Origin: an uncultured Flavobacteriales bacterium
Lineage (GTDB): Bacteria > Bacteroidota > Bacteroidia > Flavobacteriales > UBA7312
NCBI GenBank assembly: GCA_913048435.1
Contig: CAJWWC010000001.1
Span: forward strand, 151,281 to 215,280
Direction: 5' to 3'
Length of the DNA stretch: 64,000 nt
Part shown: in pieces, positions 42,555-61,469 of the stretch
Numbering within the stretch: position 1 is the first letter of the stretch
Layout: every line of letters starts with the position of its first letter
Position numbers and translations under genes: made by a program
The notes under the pieces: model-generated
What the model was told of the DNA's origin: nothing
The model's input: the letters and a program-made list of their open reading frames with translations, nothing else
Database searches by the model: none

Positions 42555-43655
42555 ATGAGCTTTTTTGGCGAATATATATCCACTTTTTTTAATGACAATC
42601 TGTTAGTATTGGTTTTGACAACCCTAATTTTGTCCTTTATCAGTTCTTACAGAACATTTCCAATGATAGTTTATATTAGTTTAAAGAAAAATTTAACAGC
42701 TAAGCCAAATGATAGAAGTTCACACAAAAAAAATACTCCTCAGTTGGGTGGAGTTGGAATTTCTTTTGGTGCATTTTTTATAGCTGGAGTTTTTGGCTCC
42801 TTCATGTTAGATAACCGAGAAATGTCGATTTTACTTTCAATAGCAGCATCGCTTGTGATTTTATTTTCAGCTGGAATTAAAGATGATATTTTTGGCTTGT
42901 CTCCAAAACTCAAATTATTTACTGAAATAAGCTCTGCATTGATATTTATGTTATTAACGGATATAAGAATAGATAGCTTTTATGGTTTATTTGGAATTTT
43001 TGAGTTACCGAAATTGGTTTCTTATTTTTACACTATTTTTGTTTTCATAATAATCATCAATTCATATAATTTAATTGATGGTATTGATGGTTTAGCAGCT
43101 AGTATTGCAATCTTAATATTAAGTTATTTTTTATATTTTTTTATAATTTCCAAATCTATACTAGCAATTGTATGTGTTTCATCAATTCTTGGAAGTATTA
43201 TAGCTTTTTTGAGATTTAACATTAGTAATGGAAAACGTAAAATTTTTATGGGAGATGTAGGTTCTTTAGTTATTGGTTATATTTTAGCTGTGTTTACTAC
43301 CATGATTCTTTCTACAAAATTTAGTTCTATTGAAGTTATTTCTAACAAGCCTGTTTTTATATTAGCCTTATTTGCATTTCCTTTTATTGATACATTGAGA
43401 GTATTTATTATTAGAGGAATTTCAGGAAGGAGTCCATTTTCAGCTGATAAAAATCATCTTCATCATAAATTATTAAAAGCAGGATTCTCACATATTCAAT
43501 CTACTATTTTAATCCTCTCATATTGTTTTTTAATTATTCTTTCATCATATATATTTTTTAGTCCTGATATTTTACAACATTTTATGACAATATTAGTGTT
43601 ATCAGTATTATTTCTTTTATTATTGTCATGGTTGATAACAAGAATTAAAAAGTAA
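42555..43655 (+). CDS. WecA/MraY-family undecaprenyl-phosphate glycosyl-1-phosphate transferase
   Basis: A 366-residue membrane protein with 10-11 hydrophobic helices. Family motifs are PNDRSSHKKNTPQLGGVGI (~50-68), the magnesium-binding NLIDGIDGLAAS, MGDVGSLVIGY and the cytoplasmic HLHHKLLKAGFSH (HxHH). It transfers a sugar-1-phosphate, probably GlcNAc-1-P, from a UDP-sugar to undecaprenyl phosphate and so starts a lipid-linked repeat unit. It stands at the head of the polysaccharide locus, which supports an initiating role. Confidence 0.88.
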   Translation: MSFFGEYISTFFNDNLLVLVLTTLILSFISSYRTFPMIVYISLKKNLTAKPNDRSSHKKNTPQLGGVGISFGAFFIAGVFGSFMLDNREMSILLSIAASLVILFSAGIKDDIFGLSPKLKLFTEISSALIFMLLTDIRIDSFYGLFGIFELPKLVSYFYTIFVFIIIINSYNLIDGIDGLAASIAILILSYFLYFFIISKSILAIVCVSSILGSIIAFLRFNISNGKRKIFMGDVGSLVIGYILAVFTTMILSTKFSSIEVISNKPVFILALFAFPFIDTLRVFIIRGISGRSPFSADKNHLHHKLLKAGFSHIQSTILILSYCFLIILSSYIFFSPDILQHFMTILVLSVLFLLLLSWLITRIKK

Positions 43656-43750: not shown

Positions 43751-44269
43751 ATGCTTAGTTCATTAATTACTTCAAAAACTAGACTTCGAGTTCTCGTAAA
43801 GTTTTTCATTAGAGCGGCCAACAGAGGACATCTTAATTCTCTTGCCACAGAGTTTGGTGAGTCTACTAATGGCGTTCGTAAAGAACTAAATAAACTCAAA
43901 GATGCTGGTTATTTAGTTAGTGAAAAAGAACAAAATAAAGTTATCTACAGAGCTAATACTAGTCATCCACTATATTCTGTTTTACAGCAGCTGGTTAAAA
44001 AACATCTCAGATTAGATGAAATTGTTGAAATTATTGTTAAACGTATTGGTGATGTTGAGAAGATTATATTAATTGGAGATTATGCGAGAGGAAACGATTC
44101 AGGACTTATTGAATTGCAGCTGATATCTGGAAATAAAAATATAAAATATATTAACGAACTAGAGGTTAAATTAAAAAATAAAATCGGAAGAAGAGTTAAA
44201 TTTTCAACTGCATCAAGTGATAATGGAATTTTACTTTACGACAAAAAATTAATGCACTATGAAAATTAA
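43751..44269 (+). CDS. Winged-helix regulator with degenerate nucleotidyltransferase domain
   Basis: A 172-residue protein. Residues ~1-75 form an ArsR/MarR-like winged helix ([27 protein letters not shown], then wing residues KNKVIYR-like). Residues ~100-170 look like an MNT-type nucleotidyltransferase fold: [24 protein letters not shown]. The active-site GS is changed to GD and the DxD pair is lost (LIEL in its place), so catalysis is unlikely. Similar proteins are found beside ugd in polysaccharide loci of Flavobacteriia (from memory), suggesting a local regulator. It overlaps ugd by 11 bp. Confidence 0.75.
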
Positions 44270-45655: not shown

Positions 45656-46624
45656 ATGAAAAAAAGTAATAAATCATTAAAAATATATGTTGCAGGTCAC
45701 AAAGGGATGGTAGGCTCAGCATGTGTTAGATTATTAGAAAGTTTAGGATATACTAATTTAATAGTTCGGATTTCAAAAGATTTAGATTTAAGAAATCAAT
45801 CACAAGTCTATGATTTTTTCAGACATACAAAGCCAGATGTTGTAATCGATGCTGCTGCAAAAGTAGGTGGTATTTTAGCCAACAATGAATATCCTTATCA
45901 ATTTTTGATGGAAAATATGCAAATTCAAAATAATTTGATCGGTGCGGCTCATGAATTTAATATTTCTAAATTCATCTTCTTGGGTAGTTCATGTGTCTAC
46001 CCTAAGTTAGCACCACAACCTATAAAAGAAGAATATTTGCTAACTGATTATTTAGAACCAACAAATGAGTGGTATGCTATTGCTAAAATATCTGGAATAA
46101 AATTATGTGAATCAATACGAAAACAATTTGGTAAAGACTTTGTTAGTTTGATGCCAACAAATCTTTATGGTTCCAATGATAATTTTGACTTGCAAACCTC
46201 TCATGTATTACCTGCGATGATAAGAAAATTTCATGAAGCTAAAGAAAATAATCATTCTGATGTTACTCTTTGGGGCACAGGATCACCTATGCGTGAGTTT
46301 CTTCATGTTGATGATTTAGCCAATGCCGTCATTTTTGCACTTGAAAATATATTACCTGACTTTCTATACAATGTTGGCTCTGGAACTGATGTAACTATTA
46401 ATGAATTAGCAAAGATAATTCAATCTCATGTTGGTCATAGAGGAATAGTTAAATGGGATACAACTAAGCCTGATGGTACACCAAAAAAATTACTGGATAG
46501 TTCAAAAATGATGCAATTAGGATGGAGTCCCAGCTACAATTTAAACTCGGGAATAGCTAAAACATACACATGGTTTTTGGACAACAAAGTTGATTTAAAA
46601 GAAGTAAAATTTGAAATTAATTAA
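45656..46624 (+). CDS. fcl: GDP-L-fucose synthase
   Basis: A 322-residue SDR-family enzyme with VAGHKGMVGSACVRLLE at the N-terminus, the Ser/Tyr/Lys catalytic set in GSSCVYP and NEWYAIAKISG, and PTNLYGSNDNFD, all diagnostic for Fcl/WcaG. It converts GDP-4-keto-6-deoxymannose (from Gmd) to GDP-L-fucose by epimerisation and NADPH reduction. Gmd is usually the direct neighbour; here it is 6.5 kb downstream with the cys and kds genes in between. It overlaps the DUF2061 gene by 14 bp. Confidence 0.95.
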   Translation: MKKSNKSLKIYVAGHKGMVGSACVRLLESLGYTNLIVRISKDLDLRNQSQVYDFFRHTKPDVVIDAAAKVGGILANNEYPYQFLMENMQIQNNLIGAAHEFNISKFIFLGSSCVYPKLAPQPIKEEYLLTDYLEPTNEWYAIAKISGIKLCESIRKQFGKDFVSLMPTNLYGSNDNFDLQTSHVLPAMIRKFHEAKENNHSDVTLWGTGSPMREFLHVDDLANAVIFALENILPDFLYNVGSGTDVTINELAKIIQSHVGHRGIVKWDTTKPDGTPKKLLDSSKMMQLGWSPSYNLNSGIAKTYTWFLDNKVDLKEVKFEIN

Positions 46625-47003
46625 AAGACATCTTTTCAAAACCGTTAGTTGGCGCTTAATAGGTACTCTAGATACTTTAATTTTATCTTGGGTTATCACT
46701 GGTAATTTTCTAACAGGTTTTAAAATAAGTACAATTGAAGTTGTTTCAAAAATGGTACTGTATTATTTACATGAACGTTTTTGGTATAAATCTAAAATTT
46801 CAAATAGCTCCAAACGACATATTTATAAAACTTTTAGTTGGCGCTTTTGGGGTACTCTTGATACTATTTTAATTGGTTGGCTTATTTCAGGAGATCCATA
46901 TATAGGTCTACAAATTGGATTTGCAGAAATTATAACTAAAATGATTTTATATTATATACATGAAAAAGTTTGGTATAAAACTAAATTTGGATTAAAAAAT
47001 TAA
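46611..47003 (+). CDS. Tandem DUF2061 membrane protein
   Basis: A 130-residue protein made of two copies of a ~60-residue unit. Each has the pattern KRHxxKTxSWRxxGTLDTxxxxWxISG, then a helix, then TKMxLYYxHExxWYK. This is the DUF2061 unit, which has two membrane helices. The genes overlap (fcl end), and cysC follows after 7 bp. DUF2061 genes are often found beside sulfate-activation genes, suggesting a role with sulfate or PAPS, but the function is unknown. The two repeats are clearly diverged, so the duplication is old. Confidence 0.85.
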   Translation: MKLIKRHLFKTVSWRLIGTLDTLILSWVITGNFLTGFKISTIEVVSKMVLYYLHERFWYKSKISNSSKRHIYKTFSWRFWGTLDTILIGWLISGDPYIGLQIGFAEIITKMILYYIHEKVWYKTKFGLKN

Positions 47004-47010
47004 TGTTTGC

Positions 47011-47601
47011 ATGAGTAACATAGTATCACATAATTTCAATGTCTGCAAGTCAGATCGAGAAAAAATACACCAACACAAGGCATTTTTAATTTGGTTTACT
47101 GGCCTATCTGGCTCGGGTAAGTCTACTATTGCGAATGCTTTGGAATCTAAACTCAATAGTTTCAATATATCATCTTATACTTTAGATGGTGATAATGTCA
47201 GATTTGGTATTTGTAATGATTTAACATTTTCATCAGAGGATAGATCTGAAAATATTCGAAGAATAGCTGAAGTTTCCAATTTGTTTGTTGATGCAGGAAT
47301 AGTAACTTTGGCATGTTTTATTTCTCCTTATGAAAAAGATAGAGAGGGTGTAAGAAAGACCGTTGGTTCGAAAAATTATATTGAAGTGTTCATTAATACC
47401 AGTTTAGATGAATGTGAGCGCAGAGATGTAAAGGGTCTATATAAAAAAGCAAGAGCTGGTGAAATAAACAATATGACAGGAATATCCGATCCTTATGAAA
47501 CTCCAAGATGTCCTGATTTAGAAATTGATACATCTAAGTATTCAGTAGAAGAGTCAGTTGAAAGAATTTTTAAATTTTTAGAAAAAAGATTATATGACTA
47601 A
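47011..47601 (+). CDS. cysC: Adenylylsulfate kinase
   Basis: A 196-residue kinase with P-loop GLSGSGKST (31-39), the LDGDNVRFG motif, FISPYEKDR and the DPYETP lid segment. It phosphorylates APS to PAPS. It stands alone rather than fused to CysN. It overlaps cysD by 8 bp. The presence of this kinase and the absence of a nearby CysH reductase point to PAPS as end product. Confidence 0.95.
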   Translation: MSNIVSHNFNVCKSDREKIHQHKAFLIWFTGLSGSGKSTIANALESKLNSFNISSYTLDGDNVRFGICNDLTFSSEDRSENIRRIAEVSNLFVDAGIVTLACFISPYEKDREGVRKTVGSKNYIEVFINTSLDECERRDVKGLYKKARAGEINNMTGISDPYETPRCPDLEIDTSKYSVEESVERIFKFLEKRLYD

Positions 47602-48499
47602 TTATGTTATTACTCATTTGAGAGAATTGGAATCAGAAGCAATTTTTGTTATTAGAGAAATAGCTGCGCAGTTTGAAAATCCCGTGCTGTTATTTTCAGG
47701 AGGCAAGGATTCCATTTTACTTACTCATCTAGCAAAAAAAGCCTTTTTCCCTGCCAAAATACCTTTTCCTTTAGTTCACATAGATACGGGACATAATTTT
47801 CCCGAAACTATAGATTTTAGGGATAATTTGGTAAAAAAATTAGGTGTAAAGTTAATTGTAGGTTCAGTACAAAACGCCATTGACAATGGAAGGGTAATAG
47901 AAGAATCCGGAGCTAATGCATCAAGGAATTCATTGCAAATAGTTTCATTGCTTGATACATTAGAAGAACATAAAATTGACGCTGCTATGGGTGGCGCTCG
48001 AAGGGATGAGGAAAAAGCTAGAGCTAAAGAGCGTTTTTTTTCTCACAGGGATGAGTTTGGTCAGTGGGATCCCAAGAATCAACGCCCTGAACTGTGGAAT
48101 TTATTTAATGGACGAAAGCATTTTGGCGAGCACTTTAGAGTTTTTCCTATTTCCAATTGGACTGAGATGGACGTTTGGGAATACATTAAATTAGAAAATA
48201 TAGAACTTCCAAGTTTATACTTCTCACATGAAAGAGAATGTGTTTTAAGGGATGGAGTTATTTTAGCAAATTCTAAATTTATTAAACTAAAAAAAGGTGA
48301 AGAAGTGAGAACTATGACCGTTAGATACAGAACCTGCGGGGATATGCCAATAACTGGTGCAGTAGAATCAACAGCCAATAGCCTTGATCAAGTTATTAAA
48401 GAAATCTCCTACACAAGAACAACTGAAAGGGGTGGTCGTGCAGATGATAAGCGAGCAGAAACTGCTATGGAAGATAGAAAAAAACAAGGGTATTTTTAA
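47594..48499 (+). CDS. cysD: Sulfate adenylyltransferase subunit 2
   Basis: A 301-residue N-type ATP pyrophosphatase with SGGKDS (~35-40), GGARRDEEKARAKER and the C-terminal RADDKRAETAMEDRKKQGYF, all hallmarks of CysD. With CysN it makes adenylylsulfate from ATP and sulfate. It lies between cysC and cysN with an 8-bp overlap and a 3-bp gap. Confidence 0.97.
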   Translation: MTNYVITHLRELESEAIFVIREIAAQFENPVLLFSGGKDSILLTHLAKKAFFPAKIPFPLVHIDTGHNFPETIDFRDNLVKKLGVKLIVGSVQNAIDNGRVIEESGANASRNSLQIVSLLDTLEEHKIDAAMGGARRDEEKARAKERFFSHRDEFGQWDPKNQRPELWNLFNGRKHFGEHFRVFPISNWTEMDVWEYIKLENIELPSLYFSHERECVLRDGVILANSKFIKLKKGEEVRTMTVRYRTCGDMPITGAVESTANSLDQVIKEISYTRTTERGGRADDKRAETAMEDRKKQGYF

Positions 48500-48502
48500 A
48501 TT

Positions 48503-49762
48503 ATGAAATCACAAAATATACAATTATTAAGATTTACAACTGCTGGAAGCGTTGATGACGGTAAAAGTACACTTATAGGGCGTTTGCTTTACGACAGTAA
48601 ATCAATTTTTCAAGATCAAATAGACGCAGTGGAAGAGTCTAGTAAAAATAAAGGCTTTGATTATATTGATTTATCACTTCTAACAGATGGTTTAAAATCA
48701 GAAAGAGAGCAAGGGATAACCATAGACGTAGCATATCGTTATTTTGCTACCCCAAAGCGTAAGTTCATAATTGCTGATACGCCAGGACACATACAATACA
48801 CTCGAAACATGGTAACTGGAGCGTCAACAGCTAACCTAGCTATTATACTCATTGATGCAAGAAAAGGCATGCAAGAGCAAACACATAGACATGCTTTTAT
48901 CGCTTCATTATTAAGGATTCCTCACGCAATAGTATGTGTTAATAAAATGGATTTAGTAAATTTTGATGAAAAAATATATGACAATATTGTAAGTGAATTT
49001 AAAGCCTTTTCATCTAAATTAGATATTAAAGATATTCAATTTATTCCTATTTCAGCATTGGATGGAGACAACGTTGTTAATCGTTCAACAAATATGGAAT
49101 GGTATGAAGGTAGCACCTTAATGTATCATTTAGAAAACGTTCATATCTCGAGTGATTACAATCATTTAGATTGTCGTTTTCCTGTACAAACTGTTATTCG
49201 ACCACATACTTTAGAACATCAGGATTATAGAGGTTTCGCTGGCCGAATTGATGGAGGCATATTTAAACCTGGAGATAAGGTTAAAATTTTACCATCTGGA
49301 TTTACCTCAACAATTAAAAAAATTGATTTGAATGGTATAGCTGTAGAGGAAGCTTTTACACCAATGTCTGTGAATATTACATTAGATGATGAAATTGATA
49401 TTAGTAGAGGAGACATGATAGTGAGAGAAAATAATGTGCCTGAAGTCAGCCAAGATTTAGAAGTTTTAGTGACTTGGATGAGTCAAAATCCTCTGCAACC
49501 CCGAACCAAAGTTGTTGTCAAGCATACAACTAGAGAATGTATAGCTATGATTAAGGAGATAATATATAAAGTTGATATAAATACACTTCATCGCATTGAA
49601 AACATAAATTTTGTTGAAATGAATGATATTGCTAGAGTGTCTATAAGAACCTCCAAGCCCTTATTTTATGATACATATAAAAAAAATAGACAGACAGGTA
49701 GTTTAATTATTATTGATGAACAAACCAATGAAACTATTGGTGCAGCCATGATTATAAGGTGA
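48503..49762 (+). CDS. cysN: Sulfate adenylyltransferase subunit 1 (GTPase)
   Basis: A 419-residue EF-Tu-like GTPase: P-loop GSVDDGKST (15-23), DTPGH, NKMD, then two beta-barrel domains. GTP hydrolysis drives the unfavourable APS synthesis by CysD. The length is that of a stand-alone CysN; it is not fused to CysC. Its stop overlaps the GTG start of cysQ. Confidence 0.97.
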   Translation: MKSQNIQLLRFTTAGSVDDGKSTLIGRLLYDSKSIFQDQIDAVEESSKNKGFDYIDLSLLTDGLKSEREQGITIDVAYRYFATPKRKFIIADTPGHIQYTRNMVTGASTANLAIILIDARKGMQEQTHRHAFIASLLRIPHAIVCVNKMDLVNFDEKIYDNIVSEFKAFSSKLDIKDIQFIPISALDGDNVVNRSTNMEWYEGSTLMYHLENVHISSDYNHLDCRFPVQTVIRPHTLEHQDYRGFAGRIDGGIFKPGDKVKILPSGFTSTIKKIDLNGIAVEEAFTPMSVNITLDDEIDISRGDMIVRENNVPEVSQDLEVLVTWMSQNPLQPRTKVVVKHTTRECIAMIKEIIYKVDINTLHRIENINFVEMNDIARVSIRTSKPLFYDTYKKNRQTGSLIIIDEQTNETIGAAMIIR

Positions 49763-50574
49763 ACAAAGACTTGTTAAAAATAGCTATTACTGCTGCACTA
49801 GAAGCAGCTAAAGAAATTTTAAAGATTTACAATGAGTCTGACGATTTTGATGTACAGTTTAAATCTAATGATTCACCACTTACGAAGGCAGATCTTGTTT
49901 CAAACCAAATTATTGAATCACATTTAAATCAAACTAATATTCCAATTCTTTCTGAGGAAGGCAAAGATATTTTATATAATGAGCGTAAAAACTGGACTCA
50001 ATTATGGTTAGTTGATCCAATTGATGGTACTAAGGAATTTATTAAAAAAAATGGTGATTTTACTGTAAATATAGCTTTAATTGAAAATCATAAACCTGTT
50101 TTAGGAGTAGTGTATGCACCAGTTTTAAATGAGTTATATTTTTCATCTTTTTCATTAGGAAGCTTTAAAGTAATTGTTGATTTGGCAGATTTTAATGTTA
50201 ATAATTTAATTGATTCGGCACTAAAATTACCTTTACCCAAAGTTGATAAGACTTATACAATCGTAGCTAGCCGTTCTCATCTTTCAGATGAAACTCTAGA
50301 TTTTATAGAAAACAAAAAGAAAATAAAAGGAAATGTTAATTTAATCTCCAAAGGAAGTTCCTTAAAATTATGCTTAGTGGCTGAGGGTTTGGCAGATTGC
50401 TATCCTAGATTTGCCCCTACTATGGAGTGGGATACTGCTGCTGGACAGGCTATTTGTGAGCATTCTGGATGTAGTGTAATTGATTGGATAACAAAGAAGG
50501 ATTTAATCTACAATAGGAAGAAACTTGTTAATAATTGGTTTGTGGTTAATCAACCACCAACTATGAATAAATAA
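49759..50574 (+). CDS. cysQ: 3'(2'),5'-bisphosphate nucleotidase
   Basis: A 271-residue inositol-monophosphatase-family enzyme with WLVDPIDGTKEFIKKNGDFT (metal site) and WDTAAGQAI (second signature). The start is GTG, overlapping the cysN stop. It hydrolyses PAP, the by-product of PAPS-dependent sulfation (or reduction), to AMP. PAP inhibits sulfotransferases, so this gene completes a PAPS supply and recycling unit. Confidence 0.93.
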   Translation: MNKDLLKIAITAALEAAKEILKIYNESDDFDVQFKSNDSPLTKADLVSNQIIESHLNQTNIPILSEEGKDILYNERKNWTQLWLVDPIDGTKEFIKKNGDFTVNIALIENHKPVLGVVYAPVLNELYFSSFSLGSFKVIVDLADFNVNNLIDSALKLPLPKVDKTYTIVASRSHLSDETLDFIENKKKIKGNVNLISKGSSLKLCLVAEGLADCYPRFAPTMEWDTAAGQAICEHSGCSVIDWITKKDLIYNRKKLVNNWFVVNQPPTMNK

Positions 50575-50577
50575 ATC

Positions 50578-51525
50578 ATGAATTTATTAAACATCGCTAA
50601 AAGAGTTTTTGAAATTGAGTCAAATGAAATTGCTAATTTGTCTAGTCTGTTAACTATTGATTTTGAAGAGGCTGTAAATTCGATTTTTAAATGTAGAGGC
50701 AAGTTAATTATTTCTGGTATAGGTAAATCAGGAATTGTTGGAAAAAAGATAGCCTCAACTTTAACTAGTACTGGAACACCAAGTTTTTTTCTTCATCCTT
50801 CCGATGCATTTCATGGAGATCTTGGTATGGTTGAAAAAGATGATATAGTTCTTTTAATTTCTAACTCAGGTGAAACAGATGAAATACTAAAATTAATTCC
50901 CTCTTTTAAACAACAAGAAAACATAATTATTTCAATTACCGGAAATCAAGACTCGTCTCTAGCAAAAAATTCAAACTTTAATTTAAACATTTCTGTTACC
51001 AAAGAAGCATGTCCATTGCAATTAGCTCCAACCTCGTCTACCACATCCACAATGGCTATGGGAGATGCATTAGCTGTAGCTTTAATGAACTTAAGAGGTT
51101 TTAAAGATGTTAATTTTGCAAAGTTTCATTTGGGTGGCACTCTTGGAAAAAGACTTTTACAGAACGTTGGACATGTAATGAAAAAAGATAATCTTCCACT
51201 TGTCAATGAAAATGATTCAATAAAAAAAGTAGTTAATGTAATAAGTTCTGGAAAATGTGGACTAGCTGTTGTTGAAAGTAAAAAAAAGATTAGAGGCGTA
51301 ATCTCTGATGGTGATATTAGAAGAGCTATGGAATTTAACGAGATAAATTTTTTTCAACTGAAAGCTAAAGACATTATGACTAACAAGCCTCAATCAGTTT
51401 ATGAGACTACAAAATTAAATGTTGCAGTTGATTTAATGTTTTCAAAGAAGATAAATTCCTTGATTGTTAAAAATGAAAAAGAACAACTAACTGGAATTGT
51501 TCAGTCTTATGATATAGGAATTTAA
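50578..51525 (+). CDS. kdsD: Arabinose-5-phosphate isomerase (KpsF/GutQ family)
   Basis: A 315-residue protein: a SIS sugar-isomerase domain (~30-180, with SGIGKSGIVGKKIASTLTSTG and APTSSTTSTMAMGDALA) followed by two CBS domains (~200-315, with ISDGDIRRAM). It makes arabinose-5-phosphate from ribulose-5-phosphate, the first Kdo step. In many Flavobacteriia the homologue lies next to recQ and tatC, but here it lies with kdsB and kdsA. The gaps to its neighbours are 3 and 2 bp. Confidence 0.93.
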   Translation: MNLLNIAKRVFEIESNEIANLSSLLTIDFEEAVNSIFKCRGKLIISGIGKSGIVGKKIASTLTSTGTPSFFLHPSDAFHGDLGMVEKDDIVLLISNSGETDEILKLIPSFKQQENIIISITGNQDSSLAKNSNFNLNISVTKEACPLQLAPTSSTTSTMAMGDALAVALMNLRGFKDVNFAKFHLGGTLGKRLLQNVGHVMKKDNLPLVNENDSIKKVVNVISSGKCGLAVVESKKKIRGVISDGDIRRAMEFNEINFFQLKAKDIMTNKPQSVYETTKLNVAVDLMFSKKINSLIVKNEKEQLTGIVQSYDIGI

Positions 51526-51527
51526 AT

Positions 51528-52289
51528 ATGAAAAAAGTAATAATAATACCAGCTCGACTTTCATCTTCTAGATTAAAAAATAAAGTACTATTAGATCTTA
51601 AAGGAAAAACCATATTACAACGAGTATTCGAGAAATGTATTAAAGTTAATGATGCAGTTGTATATATTGCTACTGATAGTAAAAGAATACAAAACAGTTG
51701 TTTGAATTATACTTCCAATGTAATAATGACAAGTGTAAGACATAAATCGGGAACCGAAAGAGTAATTGAAGCTCTCAAAAATTTACAATATGATTTTGCT
51801 GTAAATGTTCAAGCTGACGAACCTTTTATTAACCCTTTATTAATTGAAAAAATTTTTGAAGAATTGATTAAAAAAAATGTACAAGTAGTTACTGCTTGCA
51901 CAAGATTATTTAACTCGGACGAACTTTTTGACTCTAACACAGTTAAATTAGTAAAGGATATTAATAATAACGCTTTATATTTTTCTAGATCATGTATCCC
52001 ACATTTGTCAAAAAAAAATCAAATATTATTGGATCAAAAGAAATTTTTTAATGAAGTGCCTTTTTTTAAGCACATAGGGATTTACGGATTTAAAAGAAAT
52101 TTTATTAATAATTATAGTTCATTAAAAAAGAGTAATTTAGAAAATATTGAAATGCTCGAGCAACTTAGAATTTTAGAAAGTGGTTTTAAAATTAATGTAG
52201 TGGAATCAAAATTTAAATCAATTGGAATTGACACAGAGGAAAATTATATAAGAGCAAAAGAAATTATGGAATTTAAATTTAATAATTAA
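51528..52289 (+). CDS. kdsB: CMP-Kdo synthetase (3-deoxy-manno-octulosonate cytidylyltransferase)
   Basis: A 253-residue sugar-CMP transferase. It starts IIIPARLSSSRLKNKVLLDL, the nucleotide-binding loop of KdsB; NVQADEPFI is the metal/nucleotide-binding segment. It activates Kdo to CMP-Kdo for lipopolysaccharide or capsule. It is placed between kdsD and kdsA. NeuA-like CMP-sialate synthetase was considered, but the sequence order and context favour KdsB. Confidence 0.93.
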   Translation: MKKVIIIPARLSSSRLKNKVLLDLKGKTILQRVFEKCIKVNDAVVYIATDSKRIQNSCLNYTSNVIMTSVRHKSGTERVIEALKNLQYDFAVNVQADEPFINPLLIEKIFEELIKKNVQVVTACTRLFNSDELFDSNTVKLVKDINNNALYFSRSCIPHLSKKNQILLDQKKFFNEVPFFKHIGIYGFKRNFINNYSSLKKSNLENIEMLEQLRILESGFKINVVESKFKSIGIDTEENYIRAKEIMEFKFNN

Positions 52290-52305
52290 TTTATTACAAC
52301 AAAAT

Positions 52306-53136
52306 ATGCATGATTTTTTAGAAGAAATCCCAAACTTAAAATTTACTAATTCTCAAAATTTCTTTTTGATATGTGGTCCTTGTGCCATAGAAAGTGAAGA
52401 TATGGCTTTACGGATTGCTGAAAAAGTAGTTACGATAACTGATAAATTAGAGATTCCTTATATTTTTAAGGCAAGCTTTAAAAAAGCTAACAGAAGTAGA
52501 ATAGATAGTTTTACTGGAATTGGTGATGAGAAGTCATTGAACATTTTAAAAAAAGTATCAGATACATTTAAAATACCAACTACAACTGATATTCACGAAT
52601 CCAAAGATGCTGAAAAAGTTTCTGAATATGTAGATATTTTACAAATACCTGCATTTTTAGTTCGTCAAACAGATTTGGTTGTTGCTGCTGCTAAAACTGG
52701 TAAGGTTGTTAATTTAAAAAAAGGACAATTTATGAGTCCAAGTTCTATGACATACGCAGTTCAAAAAGTTAAAGATTCTGGAAATCAAAAAGCTTGGATA
52801 ACAGATAGAGGAACTATGTTTGGTTATCAAGACATGATAGTTGACCTTAGGGGAATCCCAGAGATGCGAAAAATTGCACCACTAATTTTAGATGTCACAC
52901 ATTCATTACAAAAACCCAATCAAAATTTAGGAATTACTGGAGGAAATCCTGAGATGATTGAGGTTATTTCAAGAGCAGGTGTTGTTAACAATGTAGATGG
53001 TTTATTTATTGAAACCCATTTTGATCCAAAAATTGCAAAAAGTGATGGAGCAAACATGTTAAATTTAAAAAATCTTGAGTCACTTTTAAGTAATTTAGTA
53101 GCAATAAGAAAAATCATTAATAATTTAAAGAACTAA
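52306..53136 (+). CDS. kdsA: 3-deoxy-8-phosphooctulonate synthase
   Basis: A 276-residue DAHP-synthase-family protein with [22 protein letters not shown] and TDIHES, the KdsA signature. It condenses arabinose-5-P with phosphoenolpyruvate to Kdo-8-phosphate. The Kdo-8-P phosphatase (kdsC) is not in this run. It lies 16 bp after kdsB and 4 bp before gmd. Confidence 0.95.
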
Positions 53137-56021: not shown

Positions 56022-56115
56022 TAAACTAATGAATACCTTTGGTAGTCTATAAAATTTTTAAATTAAAGATATCGTAAGCGATTAAATTAGATGATAAATT
56101 AAGTAAATTTTATTG

Positions 56116-57159
56116 ATGAAAATTAAAATGATTGAGACTATAGTTATAATCGATTCGTTTGGACTTAATGGTGGTGCTGAAAAAGTTATGTTGAATACTT
56201 ATTTAGCACTAAAAGAAAAAAAACAGGTTTATTGTTACTTACCTACAAACTCTTTTTTTTCAAAAAAGATTGATGCATCTAATTTATACGAGTTCAATTC
56301 TGTTTTTGATATAATAAGTCAAATAAAAATTCATAAACCGACTAAAATTATTCTTAACAATAAAAAATCACTTCAATACCTTATACCATTAAAGTTGTTC
56401 TATCCAAAAAGACAATTTTACTACCATTCTCACGGATATTTTAGAAATTTATTAGAACAGATTGTTTATACATTTTTTTTATTGCCTTTTTTACACAAAA
56501 CAATTTGTGTTAGTAATAGCATAATTAAAAATCACAATGCTTTATTAAAAAAGAATAAAAAACATCTACTTGTTTACAATGGGTTTAATTTTCAGTTTAA
56601 ATCAATAAAACGAGATGATGACAAATATATTAATATCTTTTTTTGGGCTCAATTACGAAATTGGAAAGGCCATTTATTTTTATTAGAAGTAATAAAAGAA
56701 ATAAAAATCCCGAATGTAAAATTTAATTTTGTAGCTTCAGTACAGGATTCTGAAAGTGAAAATTTATTAAAAAAAATAAAAAATAAAATTATCGAATATG
56801 AAATTCAGGATAAAATCATTTTTCATTTAAATATAAAAAATCATCTAGAATTTATAAAATCCAAGGCAGATATTTCCTTAAGTTGTTCCCAATTAAAAGA
56901 TCCATTACCAACAATTATTATTGAATCTTTAAGTATGGGAATACCAGTCTTAGCAACAAATATTGGTGGTAGTGAAGAAATTTTAAAGGATTACCCACAA
57001 ATGTTGACTGATATCAGACAAAGTGAGTTTCTCAATAAACTAAAATTTTTAATCAATTCTCTAGAAACTATAAATCGGGATGAATTAATACTTATTTATG
57101 AGAAGAAATTTATGTTCAAAAATTTTAATAATTCTATAGTTGAAATTATTAATGATTAA
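56116..57159 (+). CDS. Family 4 (GT-B) glycosyltransferase
   Basis: A 347-residue protein from the ATG at 56116 (the track uses the TTG one codon earlier). The N-terminal half has DSFGLNGGAEKVML, the typical GT4 donor-domain loop. The C-terminal half has DPLPTIIIESLSMGIPVLATNIGGSEEIL, the E-x7-E sugar-nucleotide motif. It adds a sugar from a nucleotide donor to a lipid-linked chain. It overlaps the flippase by 8 bp. Confidence 0.87.
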   Translation: MKIKMIETIVIIDSFGLNGGAEKVMLNTYLALKEKKQVYCYLPTNSFFSKKIDASNLYEFNSVFDIISQIKIHKPTKIILNNKKSLQYLIPLKLFYPKRQFYYHSHGYFRNLLEQIVYTFFLLPFLHKTICVSNSIIKNHNALLKKNKKHLLVYNGFNFQFKSIKRDDDKYINIFFWAQLRNWKGHLFLLEVIKEIKIPNVKFNFVASVQDSESENLLKKIKNKIIEYEIQDKIIFHLNIKNHLEFIKSKADISLSCSQLKDPLPTIIIESLSMGIPVLATNIGGSEEILKDYPQMLTDIRQSEFLNKLKFLINSLETINRDELILIYEKKFMFKNFNNSIVEIIND

Positions 57160-58291
57160 TTTACCTGTTTCCAAAAATTTAATTTTTCAATCATTAGCCG
57201 TAGGCATTCGTTCTATTTTAATTTTTTTATTTGTCTATTTTGCTACACAAAAAATTGACAACACAAGCTTATCAATACTTTTAAGTCAATTTACCTATGC
57301 CTCTATATTTTCACACTTTATATGTTTTGGTTTTGATTATTCTTTTATACAGGAAGGTGAAAAAAAAACTGATTTAAAAAGCTTTTATTTTAAGATAGTT
57401 TTAGGTAGTGTATTTACTTTATTAATCATAAAATTACAAGGGCTTGATTATAAGATATTTTTATACTCAATAGCGATTGCTAGTTCATCAATATTTAAAG
57501 GTTTAGTTAGGCTAAATCAAACCCATATGCTTGATTTTATTGTAAATTTTTCAACTTTATGTATTTTTTTGTTTTCTGTTAAAGTTTTAAATATTAATGA
57601 TTTTCTAGATTATTTAGCATTAAGTATATTTATACCCAACTTACTTGCCTTATTTAATCAGTTAAAATTTAGTTTAGAGGAGACATTTCATAAGGCATAT
57701 CGATCAGTTCTAAAATCGTTGCCACTTTCTATTTACGCAATTACAAGTTATCTATGGCTGAATGTTGATGTTTATGTGTTTGATTATTTAGACAAAATTG
57801 ACAATTATAGTAACTTTACTGTTCCTAATAGGTTTTTTATTAATTTAACAATGATACCTGTTATTTTAATGAATTATAGAATTGCGAAAATTTTTATTAA
57901 TAATTATGATTTAAATAAAGTTTTTAAAGAGTTTAATTTGATTGGTATTTTGTTGTTTTTGGTTGCTTTTTTTATTTCTGGCCCTTTAATTACTTTCATC
58001 ACAAATGATACTGTGTCACTATCCAATTTCCACAAATTATTGTTCAGCTCTATTGTATACATGAGAACTATAAATACTTTTTTTTCAATGTTAATTTTGA
58101 AAAATTTCAATAACTGGATAAGGTTTTTCACAATTTTTATTACACTTATCTTACATATTATTATTTTATATTTTTCTATAGTAAAATATGATTGGATTGG
58201 AGCGCTGTATGCATTAGTGGCTACAACACTAGTATTTGTTACAATTAATTTTGTTCTAACCAAAAAGTATTTATATGTTAAACAAAATTAA
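57152..58291 (+). CDS. Wzx-like polysaccharide flippase
   Basis: A 379-residue membrane protein (from ATG 57152; the track uses a TTG four codons earlier) with about 10-12 hydrophobic segments, few charges, and the architecture of the PST/MATE family flippases. No strongly diagnostic motif is visible; the call rests on hydropathy, length and place in the locus. It would move the undecaprenyl-linked repeat unit across the inner membrane. It overlaps the upstream GT and the downstream NTase-fold gene. Confidence 0.7.
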   Translation: MINLPVSKNLIFQSLAVGIRSILIFLFVYFATQKIDNTSLSILLSQFTYASIFSHFICFGFDYSFIQEGEKKTDLKSFYFKIVLGSVFTLLIIKLQGLDYKIFLYSIAIASSSIFKGLVRLNQTHMLDFIVNFSTLCIFLFSVKVLNINDFLDYLALSIFIPNLLALFNQLKFSLEETFHKAYRSVLKSLPLSIYAITSYLWLNVDVYVFDYLDKIDNYSNFTVPNRFFINLTMIPVILMNYRIAKIFINNYDLNKVFKEFNLIGILLFLVAFFISGPLITFITNDTVSLSNFHKLLFSSIVYMRTINTFFSMLILKNFNNWIRFFTIFITLILHIIILYFSIVKYDWIGALYALVATTLVFVTINFVLTKKYLYVKQN

Positions 58292-59294
58292 GCTTGAAGT
58301 AAAAAACCATTTTAAACACTCTTTTTTTTCTGGAGTTTTATTTTATTCTGGTAGTTTTTCACGAAATGAAATTTCAGTAATTGATTCAGTTTTGTTAAGT
58401 GACATGGAATTATTTTATGTCTTTTCTGAAAAAAAAGATTTTAAAAAATTAAAAACTTCTATAAATCAACTTGAACAAACATTAAAAATAAATAATATCG
58501 GAATTACTCAAAATTTTGAAATTGAAATTGAAGGAATTCATTTTGAAGAGCTAGAGCTAATAAAGGATAGACTTATGGTGCATGAATATGAAGCATTAAA
58601 AAACAATGACATAATATTTGATAATTTAAATAGACCTTCTCTTTTTTTAGGCTTAAAAGTTGACATAAAAAGTGTATATGATATACTTCTTCATAGAATA
58701 CTTAACCAAATATCTTTATCATTTAATTTTTATAAAAAAAAATTAAACAATGTTTTTTACAATAGATCATTAAAGAATATCTCAGACTTTATAACATATG
58801 ATTATCTACAGTCTAACGATCATAATAAAAACTGGGTTAGTAAAAAATCTGACAGAAAAACTGTATTTAATCAATCAGAAAAGCTAAAGTCTTTTAACCA
58901 TTTTGATCTTAACTTAAATATAGAAGATTACTCTAATGTTGGATCATTTAATGTATATAAAAATATATTTATTCATTGGATTAATCATTACAATCAAAAT
59001 AATAATGAATTAATTTATAGTAGAGTAAATAATAAATCTTCAATTGCTAAAATTTATAGTTATTTAGTTCAATTTTTACTAAGAATTTTTAACAAGAAAG
59101 CCCTTTCAATTAGAGAACTCTTGAATGTTTATGAAAGAATACTTTTGGATTCCAATTCTTTTATTGAATTTAATACAAAAATTGTAAAAGGTTTAAAACC
59201 ATATGGATTTTCAAATTACACTTACATATTGTTAAATGGTTGTTATTTTTCTTATTGGCTACGTCATTATAAATACTACAAATCTTTAAAATAA
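58275..59294 (+). CDS. Nucleotidyltransferase-fold protein of unknown role
   Basis: A 339-residue soluble protein. Near the N-terminus FYSGSFSRNEISV followed by LLSDMELFYVF reads as the GS...DxE active-site pattern of the Pol-beta-type nucleotidyltransferase fold (G26-S27, D43-x-E45). FEIEIEGIHF at ~81-90 could supply the third acidic residue. The rest is helical and basic, with no family I recognise. It overlaps the flippase gene by 17 bp and shares one base with the alkaline-phosphatase-family gene. It might transfer a nucleotide or phospho-group to a sugar or protein; this is inference. Confidence 0.6.
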   Translation: MLNKIKLEVKNHFKHSFFSGVLFYSGSFSRNEISVIDSVLLSDMELFYVFSEKKDFKKLKTSINQLEQTLKINNIGITQNFEIEIEGIHFEELELIKDRLMVHEYEALKNNDIIFDNLNRPSLFLGLKVDIKSVYDILLHRILNQISLSFNFYKKKLNNVFYNRSLKNISDFITYDYLQSNDHNKNWVSKKSDRKTVFNQSEKLKSFNHFDLNLNIEDYSNVGSFNVYKNIFIHWINHYNQNNNELIYSRVNNKSSIAKIYSYLVQFLLRIFNKKALSIRELLNVYERILLDSNSFIEFNTKIVKGLKPYGFSNYTYILLNGCYFSYWLRHYKYYKSLK

Positions 59295-60382
59295 TGCTTA
59301 TAGTATTCATAGATGCTTTACCGGCGTCAAAAAACTTTCAGATTAGAGATTTTAAAAAATCTAAATTAGTACCCAACTTAGGCTATAGTGTTAATTTACA
59401 CAATGAAATATTCAATGGCAAAAGTCCAGATCAAATGGGTTTTTTTGGAGAATATCTTTACAACCCTAATCCTTCTATTATAAAAAAGACTTTTTTTTCC
59501 TTTTTAAACATATTAGAATATGCTCCCTTCAAATTAAGCTCCTTATTTAAGATTTTCCTAAGAAGGTTTTTTAATATAAGATTTGGACAAATTCCTTTTA
59601 AATTAGTTCCTTTTTTTAATAGAGATGGTAAATATCCTTTTATCGGTGAATGTGATTCAATTCTAAATAAATTTCAATGTTTTATAACCGATGATTTAAA
59701 AAACGGATTAGGAAATAGAGATATAGTTGCAATTGATAATATAAATTCTCACTTAAAAAATAATTCTCCTAATAAAAATCTATTTTTAAGTTTATGTGAT
59801 CTAGATGGTATAGGTCATAAATATGGCACAAATTCCGATGAGTATAAAAATAGACTTAACTTTCTTGAAAAACACATAAATAAATTAACTAACGATTACA
59901 GTAAGCAATTTCCAGATGAAAGCATAATTGTATTAAGTGATCATGGAATGTCAAATGTTAATGGTTTCATAGATGCTCGTAAAGTTATTTCAGAAATTAA
60001 AAATGAATATAATGTTAAATTCTTTTATGATAGTTTATATATGCATGTTTTTGTTGATAATTCTACTAGCAAAAACAATCAACTTATTGAAATAAATAAA
60101 AAATTAAGCAGCAATTTACCATTACATTGTTTTTCAATAGAGGAGCGAATTAAATATGGTGTTACTAATAAAAAATTTGGAGACCTTTTATTTGTTATAA
60201 ATGATAAATTAGCATTCAGTCCAAATCTATTCGGATTTTTGAAAATGAAAGCATATCATGGATATTTACCACTATCTGAGGATAATAAAGGTATTTTTCT
60301 TCATAAGAATTTAAAAATAGATATCTCAAACAATGAAGTTTCATCACTAAATGCAAATCAAATAATAAATGATTCGTTATAA
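59294..60382 (+). CDS. Alkaline-phosphatase-superfamily phosphodiesterase/phosphatase-like protein
   Basis: A 362-residue protein with the metal-site series of the superfamily in order: D7 in FIDALP, probable nucleophile S32 in LGYSVNLH, NGKSPDQMGFF (cf. TGxxPxxHG), DLDGIGHKYGT (D...H), LSDHGM (DH), and YHGYLP near the C-terminus. This resembles nucleotide pyrophosphatase/phosphodiesterases. It has no signal peptide, so it should act in the cytoplasm, unlike secreted relatives. It follows the NTase-fold gene with a one-base overlap, so the two may work on the same substrate. Its exact reaction is unknown. Confidence 0.7.
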   Translation: MLIVFIDALPASKNFQIRDFKKSKLVPNLGYSVNLHNEIFNGKSPDQMGFFGEYLYNPNPSIIKKTFFSFLNILEYAPFKLSSLFKIFLRRFFNIRFGQIPFKLVPFFNRDGKYPFIGECDSILNKFQCFITDDLKNGLGNRDIVAIDNINSHLKNNSPNKNLFLSLCDLDGIGHKYGTNSDEYKNRLNFLEKHINKLTNDYSKQFPDESIIVLSDHGMSNVNGFIDARKVISEIKNEYNVKFFYDSLYMHVFVDNSTSKNNQLIEINKKLSSNLPLHCFSIEERIKYGVTNKKFGDLLFVINDKLAFSPNLFGFLKMKAYHGYLPLSEDNKGIFLHKNLKIDISNNEVSSLNANQIINDSL

Positions 60383-61469
60383 TTTATCATTCCTAAGTAT
60401 TGTATTTTTAAGTTTAACAGCTTTGCTGATTCAGTACTTTTTTTTAAATGGTTTTTATGATGAAAATAATTTTCTCTTCTCATATTATGGAGATGATTAC
60501 AACTATATAAATAATTTTAAAAATTTAAAATATTCAGACATTAAACTTTCTGGATTAGCAAAAGAAGGAGTTATAACTCCTTACAATGCACTTCTCTTTT
60601 TTATTATTAATTTTGGAGGTATTTATTTTTATTTTTTTGTAGAGTTCTTATTATTTGTTTTATCAAATTATTGTTTTTATAAAACTTCACAAACATTTTT
60701 AAATATAAAATATAGAAATTGGGCTTTAATATTCTACTTAATTTTACCACTAAGATATATTTGGTTATTTTCTTTTTATAAGGATTCCTTAATTTTAAGT
60801 TTATCGATAATTTTCGTTTATGTCTTTTATTTTAAAAAAGACAAACTACTATCTTTACTAACATTTCCAATGCTTTTTTTATTGAGGCCAATATTCTCAT
60901 TAATATTTTTGTTAGGTAAATTAAATTTCAAGTATTTTTTTAGGTTTATATATATTTTTATACCCATTTTCATTCTTAGTTTCTATTTATTATCAGATTA
61001 TTTATATTTTTTTAGAGATGAAAGAATTCTTGTTGTCTATGAAAAGTTACAAGAATTTCCGCTTAATGAGTCAGGGGTGTTGAATCCGATATTACCATTT
61101 TTTTTATGGATTATCACTTTAATTCAACCTCTTTATAGATCTACTGATTCTCTTCTGATATGGAGTTCAATAAATACTGTAGTTAAATTTGATGCATTGA
61201 TAAAATTAGCATTAATAACTCCAATTTGTCATGGATTATTATTTTTCAGAAATCATCTTAAACAACCTAATTTTTCTATTGTTTTTAAATTATTATGTAG
61301 CCTTTCTCTTGCAATATTATTAGGTTTTTTATTTTTAACTAATAGACACTTTATAATTTTTTTACCGTGGCAAATTTTATTTGCTTTATACATGATTAAT
61401 AAAAATGGATTTAATCTAATGTACAAGACAGGTTTTTTGATTTTACTTATTTTTATTTTTTTAAATTAA
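60369..61469 (+). CDS. Wzy-like polytopic membrane protein (candidate polymerase)
   Basis: A 366-residue very hydrophobic protein with about 9-11 helices. A large hydrophilic loop after the first helix contains YYGDDYNYINNF and ends in KEGVITPYNALLFF. LRYIWLFSFYKDSLILSLS is typical of EpsG/Wzy-like polymerases that carry a periplasmic loop. A GT-C glycosyltransferase is an alternative. It overlaps the previous gene by 14 bp. No other Wzy candidate is in the window. Confidence 0.6.
   Translation: MIRYNLSFLSIVFLSLTALLIQYFFLNGFYDENNFLFSYYGDDYNYINNFKNLKYSDIKLSGLAKEGVITPYNALLFFIINFGGIYFYFFVEFLLFVLSNYCFYKTSQTFLNIKYRNWALIFYLILPLRYIWLFSFYKDSLILSLSIIFVYVFYFKKDKLLSLLTFPMLFLLRPIFSLIFLLGKLNFKYFFRFIYIFIPIFILSFYLLSDYLYFFRDERILVVYEKLQEFPLNESGVLNPILPFFLWIITLIQPLYRSTDSLLIWSSINTVVKFDALIKLALITPICHGLLFFRNHLKQPNFSIVFKLLCSLSLAILLGFLFLTNRHFIIFLPWQILFALYMINKNGFNLMYKTGFLILLIFIFLN

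Follow-up and report, generated by a model that had tools for sequence, protein, structure and literature searches.

Phosphate-linked groups are found in bacterial polysaccharides through the LicD/CDP-choline, CDP-glycerol and phosphoethanolamine systems, with which the two genes described here share a proposed logic of activation and transfer of the group. They differ from these systems in that such a transferase was not recognised in the scanned locus and in that the phosphatase-like member of the pair lacks a membrane anchor. For the individual proteins, the closest described enzymes are KNTase (ANT(4')-Ia) and the DNA-polymerase-beta-like nucleotidyltransferases on the one hand and, on the other, the NPP family of the alkaline-phosphatase superfamily (PF01663) together with the PafA/SPAP-type alkaline phosphatases of the same superfamily. 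In KNTase, Mg and the phosphates of the nucleotide are bound by residues Ser39, Arg42, Ser49, Asp50 and Glu52 (PMC4631478), whilst in NPP and SPAP an Asn that binds phosphate, Asn111 of NPP, forms a hydrogen bond to a phosphate oxygen (PMC3145672).

The window, a 64,000-nucleotide stretch of a 1.24-Mb, 66% complete Bacteroidota assembly that gene content and neighbours in the genome set probably place in Flavobacteriales, contains a polysaccharide locus of the WecA...Wza-Wzc type in which two unusual genes, here designated NT and AP, are flanked by a Wzx-like gene on one side and a Wzy-like gene on the other (Table 1). The locus starts with a WecA-like initiating transferase at 42555, followed by nucleotide-sugar genes; its middle portion encodes the PAPS genes cysC, cysD, cysN and cysQ, the Kdo genes kpsF, kdsB and kdsA and a GDP-mannose dehydratase, and from there the order is GT4, Wzx-like, NT, AP and Wzy-like. 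Next come a gene for a glycosyltransferase-like protein (61502) and one for an epimerase (62383); the Wza- and Wzc-like export genes after them run past the end of the window. Neither the Wzx-like nor the Wzy-like protein has a Pfam match, and both names were assigned from position and hydrophobicity only.

The PAPS-making set of the capsule locus is complete (47011-50574) and yet no sulfotransferase was recognised among the scanned locus proteins. Elsewhere in the genome, Sulfotransfer_3 proteins are encoded on contig C5 (two, at L099 8993-9919 and 13736-14590) and contig C6 (one), the C5 pair being located in a second polysaccharide-type locus. With a PAPS set in one place and Sulfotransfer_3 proteins in another, the capsule locus may provide PAPS for this second locus. 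Adjoining cysC is a gene (46611-47003) whose 130-aa product contains two DUF2061 repeats. The Kdo genes (50578-53136) are found inside what is a Wzx/Wzy-type locus; in seven related genomes kdsA is 58-62% identical and occupies a different, conserved setting, so that no locus comparison could be obtained from it. Near the start of the locus (43751-44269), a 172-aa protein combines an ArsR-like helix-turn-helix (weak NCBIfam matches) with a degenerate nucleotidyltransferase-like GDYARG...IELQLI stretch and may regulate the polysaccharide genes. Downstream of the window, the same contig encodes a 1468-aa repetitive secreted protein (L093 8147-12553) with 'WNDSTYTESG'-type repeats and a sorting-like C-terminal end.

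An earlier note on this DNA described NT and AP as two open reading frames sharing a single base, and this is confirmed by a TAATG junction in which the TAA stop codon of NT occupies 59292-59294 and its last A is the first base of the AP start codon. The same note took the overlap, together with the lack of export signals, to suggest a shared cytoplasmic substrate; the overlap does not set the pair apart, since genes overlap at each of the junctions GT4/Wzx, Wzx/NT, NT/AP and AP/Wzy. As the five-gene run overlaps throughout, the overlap is a sign of an operon and is not specific to NT and AP. The reported lack of export signals is borne out, with no signal or transmembrane segment in either protein (maximum 19-residue hydropathy 1.34 for NT and 1.24 for AP) and in-frame room for just 5 and 7 codons, respectively, upstream of the start codons. 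In AP, the Asp7 strand comes first and is preceded by 7 open codons only, too few to accommodate a signal peptide. These features support a predicted cytoplasmic location for both proteins.

Table 1. Features of the NT-AP region, in window positions
Feature	Position	Strand	Basis or remark
GT4 glycosyltransferase	56113..57159	+	PF00534 profile match; overlaps next gene
Wzx-like polytopic membrane protein	57140..58291	+	Position and hydrophobicity; overlaps NT by 17 bases
NT, 339-aa nucleotidyltransferase-like orphan	58275..59294	+	KNTase-type motif residues
NT residues 26-45, GS-x2-R ... SD-x-E, predicted nucleotide and metal site	58350..58409	+	Motif
Acidic strand EIEIE (NT residues 82-86), which may supply a third carboxylate	58518..58532	+	Manual alignment, inferred
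AP, 362-aa signal-less alkaline-phosphatase-superfamily protein, PF01663-like	59294..60382	+	Profile match and alignment
AP Asp7, metal ligand, N-terminal strand	59312..59314	+	Alignment
AP Ser32, likely nucleophile (NPP: Thr)	59387..59389	+	Ungapped register
AP Glu53, position of invariant NPP Asn	59450..59452	+	Alignment
AP D171-x3-H175, metal ligands	59804..59818	+	Alignment
AP D216-H217, metal ligands	59939..59944	+	Alignment
AP His322, metal ligand	60257..60259	+	Alignment
Wzy-like polytopic membrane protein, 9 hydrophobic segments	60369..61469	+	Position and hydrophobicity; AP overlaps its start by 14 bases

AP is the more readily classified of the two. It matches PF01663 at 41.3 bits (cut-off 23, E=2e-10), the match spanning residues 159-238, and when AP was aligned with 11 PF01663-type (NPP) proteins recovered from Bacteroidota genomes, D7, D171, H175, D216, H217 and H322 all fell in fully invariant metal-ligand columns. 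The earlier claim of a superfamily member with a full set of metal ligands is thereby upheld for six of six positions, and the nucleophile it proposed, Ser32, also finds support. Whilst the aligner placed a gap at this point and Ser32 was assigned by motif spacing, the ungapped register S32-H36-G42-P45-G49 reproduces that of the NPP residues T-H-G-P-G (+4, +10, +13, +17) within the motif T-F-P-N-H...G..P...G, so that Ser32 is probably the nucleophile. In 11 of the 11 compared NPP-type proteins, position +21 from the nucleophile is the Asn that binds phosphate; in AP it is Glu53. The predicted active site is thus altered at two positions, with Ser for Thr and Glu for Asn.

In the identity of all its two-metal ligands, the order and spacing of its motifs and a profile score above cut-off, AP resembles the NPPs. 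It differs from them not only in Ser32 and Glu53 but also in lacking a signal peptide, in the restriction of the profile match to part of its length and in the position of its gene in a capsule operon; the Bacteroidota NPPs compared are exported or membrane-anchored, whereas AP has neither signal nor transmembrane segment. Weak similarity to NCBIfam PafA (NF042991, 26.3 bits against an equivalog cut-off of 650) and to PDB 5tj3 was also seen, but AP again departs from PafA/SPAP-type enzymes in the replaced Thr and Asn and the missing signal peptide. PADLOC gave a weak HEC-01B hit covering AP residues 124-185 (17 bits, E 9e-4), which was judged to be due to chance, as was a PRD-domain match in the family-profile scans. 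From its sequence, AP can be securely assigned as an alkaline-phosphatase-superfamily enzyme with an intact metal site that falls outside the exported NPPs compared.

The evidence for NT is of a different kind. The GS...DxE pattern reported at residues 26-45 is present, with GS at 26-27 and DxE at 43-45 in a motif set of G26, S27, R30, S42, D43 and E45. The bare pattern G[ST]-x(7,18)-D-x-[DE] occurs in 5% of shuffled sequences and in 68 of 700 ORFs. A fuller pattern, GS..R..SD.[DE], appears in 1.9e-4 (0.019%) of shuffles and, among 787 ORFs, only in NT and the KNTase control (pUB110); because this pattern was framed after NT had been seen, the shuffle figure should be taken as indicative and not as the outcome of a blind test. 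Residues Ser27, Arg30, Ser42, Asp43 and Glu45 of NT come in the same order as the KNTase site residues and lie next to two hydrophobic strands, and by eye the EIEIE strand resembles the KVEVNF strand of KNTase, which carries Glu76. NT and KNTase thus have in common the GS-x2-R ... SD-x-E residues, the hydrophobic strands and an acidic third strand, but the overall sequence match is not significant, the GS-to-D spacing of NT is longer by five residues, its C-terminal part is longer and unrelated (KNTase has 256 residues) and its gene has a capsule setting.

The profile searches that the earlier note proposed, which placed AP, left NT without any match: no nucleotidyltransferase family was matched in Pfam, NCBIfam, PHROG, PADLOC or PDB, and family-profile scans with the whole and the split protein returned chance matches only. 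Single-sequence structure models of NT and AP reached pLDDT values of 34-36 (33.8 for NT) and were unusable. Of the two enzyme classes originally named, the alkaline-phosphatase superfamily is supported by profile and full ligand set, and the nucleotidyltransferase class by motif only. The rarity of the fuller pattern in shuffles and ORFs nevertheless makes NT a probable nucleotidyltransferase, an assignment that is likely rather than proven.

Recurrence was examined in two slightly overlapping sets, 396 genomes from the phylum and 398 from the order (about 790 Bacteroidota genomes). In neither set did whole-genome searches recover a full-length AP relative or an NT relative with the motif, and the ten genomes of the family contained relatives of neither. 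Partial matches of AP to NPPs were obtained (22-37% identity, E about 1e-5 to 1e-10) and, since these were seen, orthologues with 30% full-length identity should have been seen as well. The AP matches in Bacteroidota proved to be NPP or PafA-like proteins, of which those with a readable N-terminus carry signal or lipoprotein-like sequences, and an AP-like match in another genome (G399) was a chance one overlapping unrelated genes with stops. The motif was absent from all weak NT matches in the 398 order genomes; one of these matches (L049) proved to be a lipoprotein of polysaccharide export. Nothing besides NPPs came from plasmids, phages, viral contigs or E. coli, and a consensus probe for AP (A1, composed partly from the window sequence, for searching only) found nothing further. 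Two scans of an all-phyla genome collection used short stretches of the query peptides, by which only close relatives are detectable. The literature searched contained no description of two such genes in a polysaccharide locus. In other phyla, polysaccharide loci do include proteins annotated 'alkaline phosphatase family protein' and 'nucleotidyltransferase', which we take as a lead and not as evidence. The NT-AP pair is thus rare in Bacteroidota. The earlier note had read the genes as a dedicated two-gene module and offered recurrence as its own test; no recurrence was found in the Bacteroidota genomes searched in depth, or in other phyla by the short-peptide scans that detect close relatives, and that claim is not supported.

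What, then, might the two proteins do? For a pair of cytoplasmic phosphoryl/nucleotidyl enzymes encoded in a capsule operon, the best explanation is the tailoring of a precursor or lipid-linked unit before flipping, and we tentatively suggest that NT and AP act jointly in a Wzx/Wzy-type capsule operon so that either the repeat unit or a sugar precursor receives a phosphate-linked group at this stage. NT, acting as a KNTase-like enzyme, would transfer an NMP onto a small molecule or sugar to give an NDP- or NMP-activated intermediate. With its NPP-like two-metal site, AP would then use Ser32 to attack the resulting diester or pyrophosphate bond, forming a covalent Ser-phosphoryl intermediate. 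From this the phosphoryl group would go either onto a sugar hydroxyl, in a transfer reaction, or onto water, in a trimming reaction that leaves a phosphomonoester. We infer the catalysis by NT, the common substrate, the substituent and the direction of the chemistry. Consistent with joint action are the PF01663 score, the complete AP ligand set, the KNTase site residues of NT, the absence of export signals, the tight overlapping run and the fact that both chemistries work on phosphate esters. Counting against it are the failure to find recurrent pairing, an overlap that is not pair-specific, the lack of a profile match for NT or of a usable structure model, and the absence, among the scanned locus genes, of a recognised donor gene for a common phosphate-linked group (choline, glycerol, ethanolamine or ribitol). 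Activation followed by transfer or trimming is our preferred version, and about as likely as two independent functions. It is doubtful that the pair represents an undescribed cytoplasmic polysaccharide module of KNTase-like nucleotide activation, in which a signal-less alkaline-phosphatase-superfamily phosphotransferase with a Ser/Glu active site then joins the activated group onto the repeat unit ahead of the flipping step.

If the functions are independent, AP would hydrolyse a diester of some kind, such as a nucleotide sugar or a lipid pyrophosphate, and NT would modify a different substrate, the two tailoring or housekeeping enzymes being adjacent by chance. This is a substantial possibility, short of an even chance: capsule loci are mosaic, the pair was not found to recur and, with the whole operon overlapping, the adjacency of NT and AP says little. 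However, chance adjacency is not the simplest reading of two side-by-side cytoplasmic phosphoryl/nucleotidyl enzymes that are both rare in the phylum. The pair might instead serve as a writer and eraser or in quality control, NT adding an NMP such as AMP to a pathway sugar or protein and AP, as a phosphodiesterase, removing it. The metal site of AP is complete, and NPP-type enzymes cleave nucleotide diesters, which are the type of product made by KNTase-like enzymes; but no capsule-locus precedent was found in the literature searched and, with Ser and Glu in place of the NPP Thr and Asn, NPP activity of AP cannot be assumed, and we consider such a cycle unlikely. Finally, NT may be no nucleotidyltransferase at all: it might be an unrelated orphan such as an acceptor-binding protein or a divergent glycosyltransferase, with an accidental GS..DxE. 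The lack of a profile match at E values of up to 10 and the frequency of the bare pattern in shuffles are compatible with this, but the scarcity of the fuller pattern in shuffles and ORFs and the hydrophobic strands in the right places beside both motifs make it improbable. Taken together, these results describe a gene pair that is real and unusual, and not a demonstrated module.

Were NT and AP unrelated in function, they would be one more unexplained gene pair in a variable capsule locus. Known alkaline-phosphatase-superfamily enzymes that build glycans and lipids, the phosphoethanolamine or phosphoglycerol transferases, act on the outer side of the membrane. If our preferred reading of joint activation and transfer or trimming is correct, a soluble cytoplasmic enzyme of this superfamily paired with a nucleotidyltransferase would mean that phosphate-substituted surface sugars can be made by another route, and NT and AP would provide two marker genes for predicting phosphate-linked substituents from sequence.
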